Of a DNA stretch of 64,000 nt, positions 599 to 33,844 are shown piece by piece; the stretch's first letter is position 1, and every line of letters begins with the position of its first letter. Made by a program: the position numbers and the translations under genes. A model generated the notes under the pieces. It saw only the letters and a list, made by a program, of their open reading frames with translations. It had not been told where the DNA came from and ran no database searches. The stretch is from Acidobacteriota bacterium (GTDB lineage Bacteria; Acidobacteriota; Terriglobia; UBA7540). Location of the stretch: assembly GCA_004298155.1 (NCBI GenBank), contig SCRD01000001.1, forward strand, positions 186,001 through 250,000. The letters are read 5' to 3'.

Positions 599-2185
599 AT
601 GTTGGACGTCAAACTTAATTTTCGTCATCCGAGTGATACGGATGTTGTGGACGACGAGGAGCGTGATCTGCTCTCGGAGGAAGAGCCCGAACTGTCGCTG
701 CGCGGCGAGGCGGATTGGGAAATTTCAGCCGAGGAAGAAGACACCGAATATGACCTGACGCCGGGGCCGCTGGAAGGCTCCATCGATCCCGTACGGACCT
801 ATCTGCGGGACATGGGCCGAGTGCCGCTGCTGAACCGCGCGGGCGAAGTACGCCTGGCGCAGCGGATTGAGCGGGGCCAGATTGTCGCCCGGCGCGCCAT
901 GTCGCGTTCGCCGCTGGTGCTGAAGGAGCTGATAGCTACCTCCAAGGCCTTGCGCGCGGGCAAGATATTGATCCGGGACATCGTCAATTTTGACGCGGAG
1001 GAGCTGGCGGAGCCAAAGCAACTTGCCGCGAAGACCCGCACAACCTTGAAGTCGCTTGATGAGCTGTGCAAATTATATCGACTGGCTTTGAGACAGGCTT
1101 CGGCCTTCGAGCGCGCTCCGAAATCGAGGAAGCGGGCTGTACTGCACGCTCGCTACCGCCTGGCGCGGACGCGCGTCCGCATGTCGCGGCTGGTAATGCA
1201 GCTTGACTTGAACACCCAGGAAACCGACCGGCTGATTGGCGTGGTCTCGCACGCCAGCCATCGCATGCAGGAGCTGCGACACCAGATTGACCGGCTGAAG
1301 ACGCACAGCTCAGCACGCGGCCGCACTCCAGCCGGCGCGCGGAGCGAGCTCCGCCTGCACCAGCAGCGGCTGAAAGTGCTGGAAACTGAATCAGGTGTAA
1401 CCGCACTCGAGATGAAGCGCACGTGGGACAAAATCCAGATTGGACAACTCCACGCCGAGCAGGCCCGCAAAGAACTGACCGAGGCCAACCTTCGGCTGGT
1501 GGTTTCCATCGCCAAGAAATACATCAAGCGAGGGCTGCATCTTCTCGATCTCATCCAGGAAGGGAACCTGGGGTTGATGAAGGCAGTGGAGAAATTTGAC
1601 TGGAGGCGTGGTTACAAGTTTTCAACCTACGCCACGTGGTGGATCCGGCAGGCGATCACGCGCGGCATCGCGGACAAGGCCCGCACCATCCGCGTGCCGG
1701 TGCACGCCAACGACACCATCAACAAACTGGCCCGCGCGCGCGGCGAACTGACGCGCGAACTGGGCCGCGACCCCAGCATTGCTGAGGTTGCGCGGCGGGC
1801 GCAAATTACCGTGGCCAAGGCCCGCCAGGTGATGAAGATCGCCCAGCAGCCGCTTTCTCTGCATACTCCCATCGGCGATGACGGCGAATCGCAGTTGAGC
1901 GACTTTTTGGAAGACAAGCACACGCCCTCTCCTTCGGATTCTGCCATCCATGTGAACCTGAAGGAGCAGACGGCTTCCATGCTGAAAACGCTGACGCCGC
2001 GCGAAGAGCAAGTGCTGAAACTGCGCTTCGGGCTTGATGATGACCACGCCCGGACGCTCGAGGAAGTGGGCAACTGCCTCTCGCTTACGCGCGAACGCAT
2101 CCGGCAGATCGAAGGGAAAGCCCTGCGCAGCCTGCGCTCGCCGTGGCGTGGCGGACGTTTGCGTTCGTTCCTTTCGGAAAACTAA
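599..2185 (+). CDS. rpoD: RNA polymerase sigma-70 factor, RpoD/SigA type
   Basis: Directs core RNA polymerase to promoters. The 528-residue protein has region 1.2 at about 63-94 ([11 protein letters not shown]), a long non-conserved segment, region 2 at about 290-368 with the [18 protein letters not shown] and [12 protein letters not shown] blocks, region 3, and region 4 at about 464-525 with [14 protein letters not shown] and [19 protein letters not shown] canonical region 1.1 is not visible; the first 55 residues are very acidic. The usual RHPSRSxxL tail is replaced by SPWRGGRL, which is unusual. The start is the ATG with GAAGGA ten bases upstream. It could be the housekeeping sigma or a group-2 relative; the tail change and lack of region 1.1 keep this open. 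Confidence 0.9.
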
Positions 2186-2469: not shown

Positions 2470-2871
2470 ATGATTCAGGAAAACAGCGTCGTGATGGTAT
2501 CCGGATCAGGCGAAGTTGCCCTTCCGCTCAGGAGGGCGCTGCACGATGCTGGAGTAAGCGTGCGCGTGGTGAGAAGTTGCGCCGAGACGGAAGAGATCCT
2601 GAACGGGCTCAGTGTTCCCTCAATGCTTTTCTGCGAAACCTCGCTGCCGGATGGCACCTGGGCTGATATCCTTGCGCTTGCCTCCGAGGCGCAAACGCGG
2701 ATCCCTGTGGTGGTGGTGTCCCGCCTCGTTGACATCGACCTTTATATCAATGCCTTGGAGCATGGCGCGGCTGACTTCATCGTTCCGCCTTTCTGCCAGA
2801 AGGATGTTTCGTACGTGATGAGCTGCGCCGTCCAGAAGAACATGGCGGTCCAGTCACCTGGCGCCGCCTGA
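2470..2871 (+). CDS. Degenerate single-domain receiver (pseudo-receiver), Asp replaced by Glu
   Basis: The 133-residue protein has the alternating beta/alpha pattern of a CheY-like receiver and no output domain. At the phospho-acceptor position it has Glu56 (LFCETSLPDGTW), the conserved Lys is Pro106 (FIVPPFCQ), Ser84 sits at the switch Thr/Ser position, and the N-terminal acidic pair is missing. It therefore probably cannot be phosphorylated in the normal way, and the Glu could mimic phospho-Asp. I chose the ATG because GGGAG lies about nine bases before it; an in-frame TTG at 2416 has no such site. A second receiver gene follows 420 bases downstream. The target is unknown. Confidence 0.7.
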   Translation: MIQENSVVMVSGSGEVALPLRRALHDAGVSVRVVRSCAETEEILNGLSVPSMLFCETSLPDGTWADILALASEAQTRIPVVVVSRLVDIDLYINALEHGAADFIVPPFCQKDVSYVMSCAVQKNMAVQSPGAA

Positions 2872-3290
2872 AGAGTTTGCTGCACCTGATGAAGTGGGCG
2901 AAAATCGCGGGTTAATTGTCCAGTTGTAAAGAAATTGTAAGAAAGCGGGCCTTCGGGGGCCTTTTAGCATCTAAGTGTTTATCAGGCACGATGCCGGATT
3001 GTTCAGGGAATTGGCGGCAGGCCCGGCATAATATCAGAGCTTGCACGATCCGGCCAGGCAGACTTTTTGCTGCCTGCAATGCAGGGACTCCAGTCGGCTG
3101 CTGAATAAGGTTGCCCGTCACGTTGCTCGCCAATCAGGTGAACGGGTAAATAAGGCTTTCCGGCGTGTGCGGGGCAGTGGGCAAGAGCTTTCAGTTTAAT
3201 GAAATCGGGACGCCCGGGAATAAACCAGGTCCAAGGGAGGGAACTGGAGGCAAGGGTGGTCACCGGGCATCCTCAGTGCAGGAGGACGCG
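2872..3290. other. Intergenic region between two receiver genes
   Basis: No gene is supported here. It holds a weak GGCC-TTCGGG-GGCC stem followed by TTTT at 2948-2965 that could be a terminator for the upstream receiver gene. A strong GGAGG at 3281-3285 serves the downstream gene. Confidence 0.4.
2948..2965 (+). terminator. Weak possible intrinsic terminator
   Basis: A 4-bp GGCC stem with a six-base loop is followed directly by TTTT, 76 bases after the upstream receiver stop. The stem is short. Confidence 0.3.
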
Positions 3291-3806
3291 ATGACGAAGA
3301 CAAAATTGCAGAATAGCATTAGCGAAGCTTCAGCGGACGCGGAGGATTTGAGGCTGCTGCTGGTAGATGAGGACGTGAATGATCTTGACTATTACGCAGA
3401 AGTTCTGCGTTACCTGGGGTACAAGGTCGTTCCAGTGGATTCCTATTCGAGGGCGGCGGCCACTCTTGGTCGCGAGCGGTTTGACCTGGTGATTGTGGAC
3501 CAGGGAAGCACCAACTTTGAGGGACGATCAGTGCTGAGCCGGGCGGTGGAGGTTGACCGCCGCGTGCCCGTGCTGGTGCTGACCCGGGCGGTGGATGCAG
3601 ACTGCTGCCTTGAGGCGCTCGACGCGGGCGCTCACGAGTATGTCCAAAAACCCCTCACTACGGCCGAAGTACGTGAACTCGTGCGTGATTACGTCAGGAC
3701 CCCGGTAGAAAAATTTCCGGACAGCGGCCCCTACGAGATGCCGCGGAATTATGCAAGTGCCGGCAGTTCAGAGGCCGGGGACGAACCTTTGCGCAGGGCA
3801 TCCTGA
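3291..3806 (+). CDS. Single-domain response regulator receiver protein
   Basis: The 171-residue protein is a CheY-like receiver with all key residues present: acidic cluster D26-E27-D28, phospho-acceptor Asp70 (VIVDQGSTNFEGR), Thr98 (VLVLT) and Lys120 (YVQKPL). A polar C-terminal tail of about 40 residues follows and no DNA-binding domain is visible. The ATG has GGAGG six bases upstream, which decides it over an in-frame upstream start at 3165. It is a close paralogue of the protein at 19367-19795, which has the same spacing but lacks Asp, Thr and Lys. No histidine kinase lies in the window, so its partner is unknown. Confidence 0.82.
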   Translation: MTKTKLQNSISEASADAEDLRLLLVDEDVNDLDYYAEVLRYLGYKVVPVDSYSRAAATLGRERFDLVIVDQGSTNFEGRSVLSRAVEVDRRVPVLVLTRAVDADCCLEALDAGAHEYVQKPLTTAEVRELVRDYVRTPVEKFPDSGPYEMPRNYASAGSSEAGDEPLRRAS

Positions 3807-16593: not shown

Positions 16594-18852
16594 TTGGAAG
16601 CTGTACTCCCTGCACCTCGGGCTCGAAATCAAGCCGTAAAGCCCCCAATCCTACGGACTGGAATAATCATTTGCGCGCTCGGCGCCTTCGTTCTTCCGGC
16701 CCTGGCGCCTGCTGCGCAAGAGTCCTCGAAGCGCCCGTTTAGCGTGCATGTTGAGACGCAACTGGTTCAGGTGCACGTGCGCGTTATCGGGCCTGATGGC
16801 AAGCCTGTCGCCGGCCTGAAGAAATCCGATTTTGTCATTAAAGAAAACGGACGGCCGCAGCAGGTAGAGACGCTGGAGTATATTCCGGTTCCGGCGTCCG
16901 TCCGGAAGGCCCCACAAACGGTGCAGGCAGCAACCGAGGGCGGGCAGCCATCCCGCCGCCGAGTGTGGATCTACATCGACAGTGAAGCTGACTCCAATGA
17001 AGCTCCCGAAGTCTACCAGGCCATCAGGCAGTTTCTGTCAAGCCAGATGCAGCCGGGATTCATGGTGTCGCTCGACGGCCTGCCCTTCACGGATGACGGG
17101 ACAAAGCTGCTGGCCACCCTTGAACAAATGCGCCAGCATCCGTACGGGCGTCTTCCAGAAGCGCCGCCGCTTATCAATTCCACCCTCGACATGGAGAAAC
17201 AAGCGGATTACGAGTGGCTGCTCTATTCGGCCTTGCTGTGGGGTGGTAGCGGGACTGCGCCACCGCCGGGTTTTGGCCGCTTCATACTGAGGCCGGGACT
17301 TGTACCTGCCGGGCGTGCAGACGTCTCCATGAGCCTGGCCGATCTTAAGCTGGAAATGAAAGAGACGGAACTGGAGATGGGATTTTACGTCCGCTCGGCC
17401 CTTTTTCGTTATCTGGACATCATCTACCGGCTGGAGGCTTTTCAAGGCGAAAAGGTAATCATCATTTTCCGCTCCGGACTTCGCATGGACCCGGACAGTA
17501 TCGCCCTGTTGCACCGCTTCGCAGCGGACGCCATGCGCCATCAGATAGTTTCCTACACTGTGGATACCCGGGGCCTGATTAACATTGACCCTACCACCAA
17601 TCGGTCGAAGCTGTTGCGCTACGGAGTCCCCATTCCAACCTGGAGCATGAGCTCACCGCTGCAGTTCCAGTTGGCCCTGAACGACTACACACGAACCGAA
17701 GAGCTCGAAAACGGGCGCAAGGAAGGGTTGGTTGGCATAGCCAAACTTACCGGCGGAAAAGCCGTCACCGACACGAGCGATCTCCACGAGGTGTTCAACG
17801 ACGTGGTGGAAGACGCGTCCGGCTATTACGTTGTCGGTTTTTACCCGGAGGACAAACGGCAACTTGGCAGATTCAGGCAGCTCAAGATTTCCATCGATCT
17901 GCCGCAAGACAAAGTTTACGCTCCAAAGGGTTACTACGAGCCCATGCCCTTTAAGGAGCTCTCGAAGCGAGAGAAAGAGATCGTTTTGTGGCAGGCGCTG
18001 CAATCTGAGATGCCGCGAGAGCTGAACGTTGCAGCCAGCGTGAACGTGTTCCGAGGAGACAACGGCCAGCCTGTGGCGATGGTGAGTACGGGCGTTCAAC
18101 TCGGCTCGCTTGCTGCGGGCCAAAAAAAGAATGCCTCCGAAGTCCGCGTGACGGAACTGGCGGAGATTGGAGCGGCAGCCGGCGGGACGCTCCCCATTTA
18201 CCACGGGCAGTTCGCCAGCATAACGATAGCAAATCCAGTATTCAGCCGCGCAAGCGCCAGCCCAATGGACTTCGTGACGTTTAACACAAGGATGTTTGTG
18301 CCCCCGGGGAAGCATATCTGCAAAGTCATTTTCCGAGACGATAATACCGGGAAGCTGGGCGCCGAGGAGGTACGCTTTGAAGTGCCGGATTTCGAAGGGG
18401 CCCCGGCAGCAAGCACGATGATGGTGACCGATCATGTATCTTCAGTCCCCTCCACTGCAGCCGGCGGAAAGGAGAATGGCGAGGCTGCATCCCGGGCTGG
18501 AACATTGCGTGAGGGGCAGATGGACTTTGTTCCCCAGCCCGATGCAGCGTTTTACTCGGGGGACAAAATCTATCTACTCTACGAGCTCTATAATCCGCCT
18601 TCGTATGATTTCAACGCGCTTGCCGCCTCCGCCAACACTGCGCTATTTAGAAACGGCACTCCCGTCCGGCAATTTAATATCAGATGGAGAATCCTCCCGG
18701 ATCCGGAAAAGAAGGCAGCGGTCCTGATCGGCACACTTGATACCCTCGACTACCCGGCCGGAAGCTACAGGGTGATCCAGTCTGTACCGCAGGAGGTTCG
18801 AGCCCAGGGCAAGCTCTTTGCAAGCTTCACACTGCTCCCGAAGCAGCCTTAG
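16594..18852 (+). CDS. VWFA-related exported protein of the acidobacterial type
   Basis: A 752-residue exported protein. After a signal segment (about 20-42) comes the immunoglobulin-like entry domain VQVHVRVIGPDGKPVAGLKKSDFVIKENGRPQ. Then follows a von Willebrand A-like domain with VWIYIDSEADSNEA. The MIDAS DxSxS is not intact, so metal binding is doubtful. The C-terminal half has further beta domains. The start is TTG with GGAGG six bases upstream, which is decisive. Function is unknown; relatives are abundant in Acidobacteriota. A receiver paralogue follows after 514 bases. Confidence 0.8.
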   Translation: MEAVLPAPRARNQAVKPPILRTGIIICALGAFVLPALAPAAQESSKRPFSVHVETQLVQVHVRVIGPDGKPVAGLKKSDFVIKENGRPQQVETLEYIPVPASVRKAPQTVQAATEGGQPSRRRVWIYIDSEADSNEAPEVYQAIRQFLSSQMQPGFMVSLDGLPFTDDGTKLLATLEQMRQHPYGRLPEAPPLINSTLDMEKQADYEWLLYSALLWGGSGTAPPPGFGRFILRPGLVPAGRADVSMSLADLKLEMKETELEMGFYVRSALFRYLDIIYRLEAFQGEKVIIIFRSGLRMDPDSIALLHRFAADAMRHQIVSYTVDTRGLINIDPTTNRSKLLRYGVPIPTWSMSSPLQFQLALNDYTRTEELENGRKEGLVGIAKLTGGKAVTDTSDLHEVFNDVVEDASGYYVVGFYPEDKRQLGRFRQLKISIDLPQDKVYAPKGYYEPMPFKELSKREKEIVLWQALQSEMPRELNVAASVNVFRGDNGQPVAMVSTGVQLGSLAAGQKKNASEVRVTELAEIGAAAGGTLPIYHGQFASITIANPVFSRASASPMDFVTFNTRMFVPPGKHICKVIFRDDNTGKLGAEEVRFEVPDFEGAPAASTMMVTDHVSSVPSTAAGGKENGEAASRAGTLREGQMDFVPQPDAAFYSGDKIYLLYELYNPPSYDFNALAASANTALFRNGTPVRQFNIRWRILPDPEKKAAVLIGTLDTLDYPAGSYRVIQSVPQEVRAQGKLFASFTLLPKQP

Positions 18853-19366: not shown

Positions 19367-19795
19367 ATGCCATACCGTTTCAGCGTGTCGAAACAAAGTG
19401 ACCAGTGCCGGACTGCATCAAGGGGCAATGTTCTCGTCATTGACGAGGACCCTGCCGACCTGGTCTATTACCGGACCGTGCTCCAGCGCGCCGGATGCGC
19501 CGTGGTCACGTGTAACTCATATAACGAGGCTCTGGACTGCCTTGAGGCTGAGCCCTTCGACCTGATAGTCCTGAGCCAGGGAAGCTCCGCCTTCGAAGGT
19601 CGCGGAGTGCTGGAGAAAGCTGTCGCGACCGACCGCGACAGGCAGGTGCTGGTGGTGGCACACGTGCTGAATATGAGTTGCTACCTTGAGGCGATGCAGC
19701 TTGGGGCGAGAGACTATCTTGAAGAGCCGGTATTGGAGCAGGAGATGGTCCGTGCCGTGGAGACTTGCCTGACTTCCCGAGCAGTGGCAGCTTGA
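19367..19795 (+). CDS. Degenerate receiver paralogue lacking Asp, Thr and Lys
   Basis: A 142-residue CheY-like protein that aligns position by position with the receiver at 3291-3806, including the rare block QGSxxFEGRxVLxxAV. The acidic cluster D26-E27-D28 is kept, but phospho-Asp70 is Ser70 (VLSQGSSAFEGR), the switch Thr98 is Ala98 and Lys120 is Glu120 (YLEEP). It is therefore a pseudo-receiver that probably signals without phosphorylation. GGAGGG lies close before the ATG, which is preferred over an upstream in-frame TTG at 19328. No output domain is visible. Confidence 0.78.
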   Translation: MPYRFSVSKQSDQCRTASRGNVLVIDEDPADLVYYRTVLQRAGCAVVTCNSYNEALDCLEAEPFDLIVLSQGSSAFEGRGVLEKAVATDRDRQVLVVAHVLNMSCYLEAMQLGARDYLEEPVLEQEMVRAVETCLTSRAVAA

Positions 19796-33755: not shown

Positions 33756-33844
33756 TGGTGCGGAGGGAGGGAATCGAACCCTCACTTCCCGGAAGGGAAA
33801 AGGGATTTTAAGTCCCTTGCGTCTACCAGTTCCGCCACCCCCGC
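33756..33844 (-). tRNA. tRNA-Leu, anticodon TAA, CCA encoded
   Basis: The minus strand folds as a class II tRNA. The acceptor GCGGGGG pairs with CCTCCGC plus A73 and an encoded CCA. The anticodon loop CTTAAAA gives anticodon TAA, and a long variable arm precedes GGTTCGAATCC. Reads UUA codons. The integrase remnant starts 20 bases beyond its 5' end. Confidence 0.93.

Follow-up and report, generated by a model that had tools for sequence, protein, structure and literature searches.

Three Stand-Alone Receiver Genes in the Window

The window, by which we mean the whole 64,000-nucleotide stretch of DNA that was analysed, sits on contig C1 of a 5.2 Mb genome and carries on its plus strand three genes for small receiver proteins. 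The first, of 133 aa, extends from its ATG at 2470 to 2871 downstream of an RpoD-like sigma factor gene (599–2185, plus strand), and is followed by a second gene, for a protein of 171 aa, at 3291–3806. The third, encoding 142 aa, is found at 19367–19795. The first-pass annotation had described the second protein as an intact receiver and the two others as altered at the phosphorylation site, and the residues found in the reading frames agree with this description. The 3291 protein possesses the acidic pair, Asp70 (codon GAC, 3498–3500), Thr98 and Lys120, and has Arg99 at the position following the Thr (T+1). The 2470 protein has Glu56 (codon GAA, 2635–2637) at the phosphoacceptor position, Ser84 at the Thr position, Pro106 at the Lys position and no acidic pair. 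The 19367 protein shows Ser70 (codon AGC, 19574–19576), Ala98 and Glu120, at the very residue numbers of the 3291 copy, with His99 at T+1. By the five-residue rule, the 3291 protein is thus a receiver and not a pseudo-receiver, and both the 19367 protein (S/A/E) and the 2470 protein (E/S/P, without acidic pair) are pseudo-receivers.

The 3291 and 19367 proteins align by BLASTP without any gap over 106 residues, 46 of which are identical (43%, E 2e-27), so that the register is firm. A register shift that would hide an Asp in the 19367 protein, which the annotation had itself named as a possible refutation, was considered and rejected, as there is no alternative Asp in register. The codon of Asp70 in the 3291 gene lies directly 5' of a block encoding QGSTNFEGR (residues 71–79; 3501–3527, plus strand), located in the beta3-alpha3 loop, which is the hallmark of the family called X below; the corresponding block of the third copy is QGSSAFEGR (19577–19603, plus strand). 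The Pfam Response_reg model (PF00072) matches the 2470, 3291 and 19367 proteins with 31.6, 56.4 and 45.0 bits, respectively, for a cut-off of 30.2, and no other Pfam family is above cut-off in these proteins of 133, 171 and 142 aa, in line with the earlier statement that none of them has an output domain.

Other features of the region were also recorded. A terminator suspected by eye between the 2470 and 3291 genes was not retained, since a plus-strand scan was negative and the fold was no better than that of shuffled sequences. A gene for an acidobacterial VWFA-type protein (TIGR03436) is present at 16594–18852, upstream of the 19367 gene, in a neighbourhood common to the related genomes G037 and G038. 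The sole match in the window to Rfam at gathering score is a tRNA gene (33759–33844, minus strand).

Two Families, X and Y

When the own genome is searched with the 3291 protein, five clear members are found (E ≤ 6e-23), followed by a gap to 1.6e-11. These five paralogues, referred to as family X, carry at the Asp, Thr and Lys positions D/T/K (3291), S/A/E (19367), G/A/M, S/S/K and A/A/R. The search with the 2470 protein yields a separate set of four, family Y, with E/S/P, G/S/P, D/S/D and D/G/P. The proposal that all three window proteins form one family is therefore retained for the 3291 and 19367 proteins only: the 2470 and 3291 proteins share a 47-residue BLASTP match alone (36%), and the 2470 protein scores 41.7 bits with the X model, a value exceeded by several of the genome's ordinary receivers, the top two of which reach 64.6 and 63.5 bits. 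The adjacent copy is thus not the sister of the intact one, and belongs to family Y.

Family X has a very narrow distribution. With a profile model built from 43 X domains and a match threshold of E ≤ 1e-26, X is found, among the candidates scored, in 29 of 399 genomes of the class, i.e., in 27 of the 39 of the same taxonomic family and in 2 of the 360 others. The scans scored ten and fourteen candidates per genome, so that the number of X copies is a lower bound. A second sample, of 297 genomes from the whole phylum and overlapping the first one, gives the genome of the window as the sole match. Among 26 related loci in named records, 23 come from records labelled Acidobacteria, Acidobacteriota or Terriglobia (identity at least 32%), and the remaining three are weak matches (23–28%) in Verrucomicrobia and Sulfopaludibacter records.

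Family Y is matched (E ≤ 1e-20) in 83 of the 399 genomes of the class, including 35 of the 39 of the same taxonomic family; outside that family the count is not clean, some matches lying in long frames of 389–477 aa. An apparent 466-aa Y fusion (G015) was dropped as evidence, as the Y domain is there read into a seemingly separate protein with its own signal-like start. X is not matched in 12 and Y in 4 of the 39 genomes of the family, some of which are incomplete, indicating that neither family needs the other.

Active-Site Residues of X and Y

The active site of X was analysed in 59 distinct domains from the fetched loci, leaving out a fragment (L053, with Ser at the site), lower-scoring ordinary receivers and Y domains. 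The phosphoacceptor position is occupied by Ser in 26, Asp in 11, Gly in 9, Asn in 6, Glu in 3, Ala in 3 and Cys in 1, and 48 of the 59 domains are thus devoid of Asp. All 26 serines are encoded by AGY codons (20 AGC and 6 AGT), which are one step from Asn and Gly codons and two from Asp. The Thr position is Ala in 29, Thr in 23 and Ser in 7 domains, and Lys is kept in 33. The residue following this highly variable position is nonetheless Gln in 59/59, and the Phe of the QGxxxFEGR block is present in 58/59. The full quintet (acidic pair, Asp, Thr/Ser and Lys) occurs in only three X domains, those of the 3291 gene and of its relatives in G038 and G027, which form one clade (support 89/71) together with the G037 orthologue, where Glu replaces Asp. 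The initial observation on the window genes is real, and it is the intact copy that is the odd one, an exception in a mostly switchless receiver family. In a separate locus (L055), two X copies on one contig (1623–2048 and 7267–7740) are 86.7% identical, and the switch site is Asp in one and Ser in the other.

For Y, 106 distinct domains were retained, those above 75 bits among the fetched loci, which are a subset of all Y matches; of the six rows excluded for lower scores, five also lack the Lys and the sixth is an ordinary NtrC-type receiver with D/T/K. The Asp site is Asp in 63 and Glu in 23. None of the 106 has the Lys, Pro being found there in 85, and both acids of the acidic pair are present in none of the 100 domains with letters at that position. 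Trp is found at D+8 in 101/106. Judged from these residues, the main loss is that of the Asp in X and that of the metal and Lys sites in Y, and the switch is broken in different places in the two families.

As a control, all 51 PF00072 matches of the own genome at E ≤ 0.001 were inspected. Asp is missing in nine of them, six among the nine X and Y domains vs. three among the 42 others (Fisher p 0.0003, to be taken as descriptive, as X and Y were chosen for Asp loss). Two of the latter three are again degenerate stand-alone receivers lying side by side (L310 on contig C28, 2337–2930 and 3023–3493), with Ala and Gly at the Asp site; this pair adjoins the gene of a ScdA_N-hemerythrin protein of the iron-sulphur repair type (Pfam).

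The position T+1 further sets the two families apart from other receivers. According to a recent review, this residue is usually small, which leaves the phosphorylation site accessible (PMC12632262). Of the 59 X domains, 43 have Arg and 9 have His there, 52 in total, and Arg is found in 61 of the 106 Y domains; neither Arg nor His occupies it in any of the 42 other receivers of the own genome. In the 3291 clade, three of the four members have Arg, among them the 3291 protein itself, and the G027 relative has Gly. The view of the intact copy as simply phosphorylatable is consequently weakened by this Arg: the 3291 protein may be plugged at T+1.

Predicted Fold and Conserved Region

The AlphaFold models of the 3291 and 2470 proteins are receiver folds (pLDDT 85.4 and 90.8, respectively), and their Foldseek matches are, judged by title, receivers and response regulators. 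Along the X domain, the mean frequency of the commonest residue reaches 0.80 in the beta3-alpha3 loop, 0.74 in alpha4 and 0.82 in beta5, vs. 0.42 in alpha1 and 0.44 in alpha5; it is 0.70 and 0.69 in the buried strands beta1 and beta4. Gln71, Gly113, Ala114 and Tyr117 are invariant in the 59 domains, and the phosphoacceptor only ranks 71st of 121 positions by entropy. This pattern points to a fixed contact face around alpha3-alpha4-beta5, with the reservation that the face is read from predicted secondary structure and not from surface exposure, and that buried beta1 and beta4 are conserved too.

The fold and the conserved region are common to intact and Asp-less paralogues, as would be expected if the latter acted within two-component systems, where they would compete with an intact receiver, or tune it, at a histidine kinase, phosphatase or response regulator that both can bind. 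This explanation, to which we return with the gene neighbourhoods, seems unlikely. Receivers usually contact kinases through alpha1 and alpha5, which are here among the least conserved parts. In addition, a full active site is restricted to the 3291 clade (3/59), so that most genomes have no intact X to compete with, and the intact protein of the window itself has Arg at T+1.

Position 105, at the start of helix 4, is most commonly Cys (77% of X), an unusual residue to be so conserved, which fits the alternative that X could be switched otherwise than by Asp phosphorylation, through a ligand at the altered pocket or a modified helix-4 Cys. We regard this as very improbable. The Cys is missing in about a quarter of X, including one of the five paralogues of the own genome. 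In RitR, the Asp-less receiver that invites the comparison, the Cys is located in a linker and not in helix 4, and RitR has a DNA-binding output domain, unlike the window proteins (Pfam). What favours the comparison is that RitR and its relatives are redox sensors (PMC5965902).

Selection and History of the Phosphoacceptor Site

When the genes of the own genome and of G038 are compared, the Nei-Gojobori dN/dS values of the 3291, 19367 and 2470 genes are 0.076, 0.09 and 0.27, respectively. The S/A/E gene is thus under purifying selection about as strong as the intact gene. For 12 X pairs, dN/dS ranges from 0.04 to 0.27, with 10 of them at 0.04–0.15 and the remaining two at 0.24 and 0.27; as dS is above 1 in several pairs, their ratios are rough. 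These results bear out the suggestion that stand-alone receivers form here a conserved family, with the phosphorylation residues present in one paralogue and missing from others, both kinds being under purifying selection.

The states of the site are also largely stable among orthologues. The four members of the 19367 group, whose identity goes down to 54%, all have S/A/E, so that the random variation that would have spoken against the initial observation does not apply to this copy. In the four other X groups of the own genome, the Thr and Lys states are constant, with the exception of a G027 member of the G/A/M group, which has S/T/M. The Asp position itself varies in three of the five groups (D/E, G/S and A/G). 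Within the genus (own genome, G038 and G037), the site is E, E and D in the 2470 gene, and the idea of a Glu fixed in a "locked" state is therefore not supported; it is D, D and E in the 3291 gene. The own genome and G038 thus combine a Y Glu with an X Asp and G037 a Y Asp with an X Glu, but such cases are too few to judge.

It could be argued that the degenerate copies are decaying genes without function, since their Asp, Thr and Lys residues vary widely between paralogues and the Y gene of the window evolves faster than X. The low dN/dS of most X pairs, the four invariant residues and the near constancy of the three positions inside each orthologue group make this hardly credible.

A tree was computed from 64 rows and 117 columns, with the columns of the three sites taken out, and 25 of its 61 inner branches are starred. 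A history with only one loss of Asp is rejected on it (p-AU 8e-50), and a loss-only model fits worse than a model with regain (2 delta lnL 21.4). By parsimony, 10 changes with regain or 19 losses without regain are required; in step counts on 40 of 1000 bootstrap trees, without branch lengths, these numbers are 8–11 and 17–25, respectively. The position of the 3291 clade as the first X branch is not rejected (p-AU 0.231), the groups of the AU tests having been named after the tree was seen.

Two histories of the intact copy can then be considered. As the tree with the 3291 clade first is not rejected, Asp could have been retained in this clade: the 3291 protein would branch near the root of the family and be regulated by phosphorylation like any ordinary receiver, the switch having been lost in its paralogues. 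Asp is indeed the state of ordinary receivers (39 of the 42 others in the own genome). This simple retention appears distinctly unlikely, as the free tree nests the 3291 clade among Asp-less lineages, with an estimated probability of Asp of about 0.07 in the ancestors, as the loss-only model is worse, and as three of the four clade members have Arg at T+1. The other possibility, which we consider rather unlikely and put forward tentatively, is that the docking face of X is fixed and the phospho-switch optional, Asp having been lost many times and probably regained; the 3291 protein would then be a re-armed pseudo-receiver sharing the partner of its paralogues.

Gene Neighbourhoods

The neighbours of X were examined in a set of 453 ORFs from 53 neighbourhoods (51 fetched loci and two pieces of the window), clustered all against all. 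One cluster (c2) consists of antisense frames of X itself, which indicates that some X genes escape the simple gene calling. All three compared genomes of the genus have the genes of the sigma factor, Y and X in this order. In G016, a second Y-X-X cluster with other X members is found behind a LuxR-type response regulator, and X genes of different clades are paired in several genomes (L041, L045, L049 and L056). The neighbours of X are mostly metabolic; the recurring families are MFS transporters (17 of 91 scanned proteins) and KduI/IolB (5 of 91), beside X pairs of one genus. In four loci (L175, L155, L153 and L147), X is adjoined by a small helical protein that looks exported, and the one example tested had no NCBIfam match.

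Two-component genes do occur near X. Intact and S/A/E genes lie about 16–25 kb apart in three genomes of the genus, which would suit a role of the Asp-less copies beside an intact receiver, and histidine kinase genes, found by a motif screen and confirmed by Pfam, are present in three of the 53 neighbourhoods (L141, L151 and L154, in G017, G002 and G027). In G017, an X gene, a kinase gene and the gene of an NtrC-type regulator follow each other on one strand (L141, 1271–4291), with a 100-base gap and a one-base overlap of the kinase and regulator genes. In G002, NtrC-type and kinase genes are convergent with an X gene of the same sub-clade as that of G017 (support 89/53). In G027, the genes of a CHASE3 kinase and of a hybrid kinase are located upstream of the relative of the 19367 gene. 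A fourth candidate, L156, was discarded, as the motif match is DNA gyrase B. Ordinary response regulators or sigma-54 activators are also found near X in L157 and L173 (by Pfam) and in L161, L162, L163 and L172 (by cluster and eye).

Kinases are, on the other hand, absent by the motif screen from the other 50 neighbourhoods, among them those of the window genes, and in 177 further neighbours of at least 250 aa HATPase_c does not rank among the 25 Pfam families found most often, a ranking in which a kinase present in one or two of them could be hidden. The kinases in 3 of the 53 argue against a reading purely outside two-component systems and make a role of X beside such systems conceivable.

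X and Y as Putative Binding Modules

From the predicted fold, the residue patterns, the selection and the distribution, we infer, with a confidence only slightly better than even, that X and Y are stand-alone receiver-fold proteins acting mostly as phosphorylation-independent binding modules, i.e., as pseudo-receivers. Family X keeps the fold and the conserved region made of the beta3-alpha3 loop with QGxxxFEGR, helix 4 and strand 5, the phosphoacceptor position being now free to vary; family Y has lost the metal-binding acids and the Lys. Each paralogue could then act by binding, with an effect that depends on how abundant it is, and the X paralogues, through a common docking face, could bind the same partner, for which they might compete, or each other. 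For one X sub-clade, a candidate partner is the NtrC-type two-component system encoded next to it. In the 3291 group, the only one with a full active site, phosphorylation may act as an additional control, or the site may be what is left of such control. Several observations do not fit such binding modules easily: 11 X domains keep the Asp and more than half the Lys, so that some may still be phosphorylated; the kinase genes of the three neighbourhoods described above suit a two-component link; and the Y gene of the window evolves faster and its Glu is not conserved in G037.

Relation to Known Receivers and Significance

Receivers without Asp are already known, and Acidobacteria have been reported to be rich in them. 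In the 2015 survey of aspartate-less receivers (ALR), the substitutes are Glu (26%), Asn (16%), Ser (15%), Gly (11%) and Ala (9%), and Acidobacteria rank second in average number of ALRs per genome (Maule et al., 2015; PMC4395418). X resembles the ALRs as described there in being receiver-like without phospho-Asp and in having the same set of substitutes. It differs from them in that its Asp-less members mostly have Ser (26/48, all AGY) and rarely Glu (3/48), and in being single-domain, almost confined to one taxonomic family, and endowed with an invariant Gln beside the site.

The two families similarly share with the pseudo-receivers (PsR) of Bourret et al. (2025; PMC12632262) the lack of at least one of the five active-site residues (no Asp in 48/59 X and no Lys in 106/106 Y) and fewer small residues at T+1; they differ from them as defined sub-families with signatures of their own. 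The terms "Acidobacteri", "single-domain", "stand-alone" and "paralog" are absent from the text of that review, and no description of such a receiver family in Acidobacteria appears among the papers listed by a literature search.

The heterodimer of BldM and WhiI, which both possess DNA-binding output domains, offers another comparison. An atypical regulator there acts by pairing with a related regulator (PMC12632262); X and Y differ in having no output domain. The pseudo-receiver FrzS of Myxococcus xanthus binds SgmX via its alpha3-beta4-alpha4 face, according to the same review (PMC12632262), and this face is the one nearest to the conserved region of X; FrzS has in addition a C-terminal coiled coil, whereas the three ORFs of the window stop soon after the receiver domain. 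Y is finally reminiscent of the receivers of the NtrC family, its motif GAFDFIxPPF resembling their GAFDFIxKPF, and LuxO and NtrC are among the best NCBIfam matches of the window Y protein, far under the cut-offs; Y differs from them in having neither an AAA+ nor a DNA-binding domain and in the replacement of the Lys in all its 106 domains.

What is added here is the definition of two families with their signatures, one of them very narrow, of a face that appears fixed apart from a free switch site, and of Arg or His at T+1. Family X may account for part of the high number of Asp-less receivers reported for Acidobacteria in the 2015 survey. The mode of action of bacterial pseudo-receivers is considered an open question in the recent review (PMC12632262). 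With Asp, Glu, Ser, Asn, Gly, Ala or Cys at the same site of one scaffold within a narrow lineage, and with several of these variants in a single genome, family X provides a natural substitution series, which lets one ask what the receiver fold does without phosphorylation.
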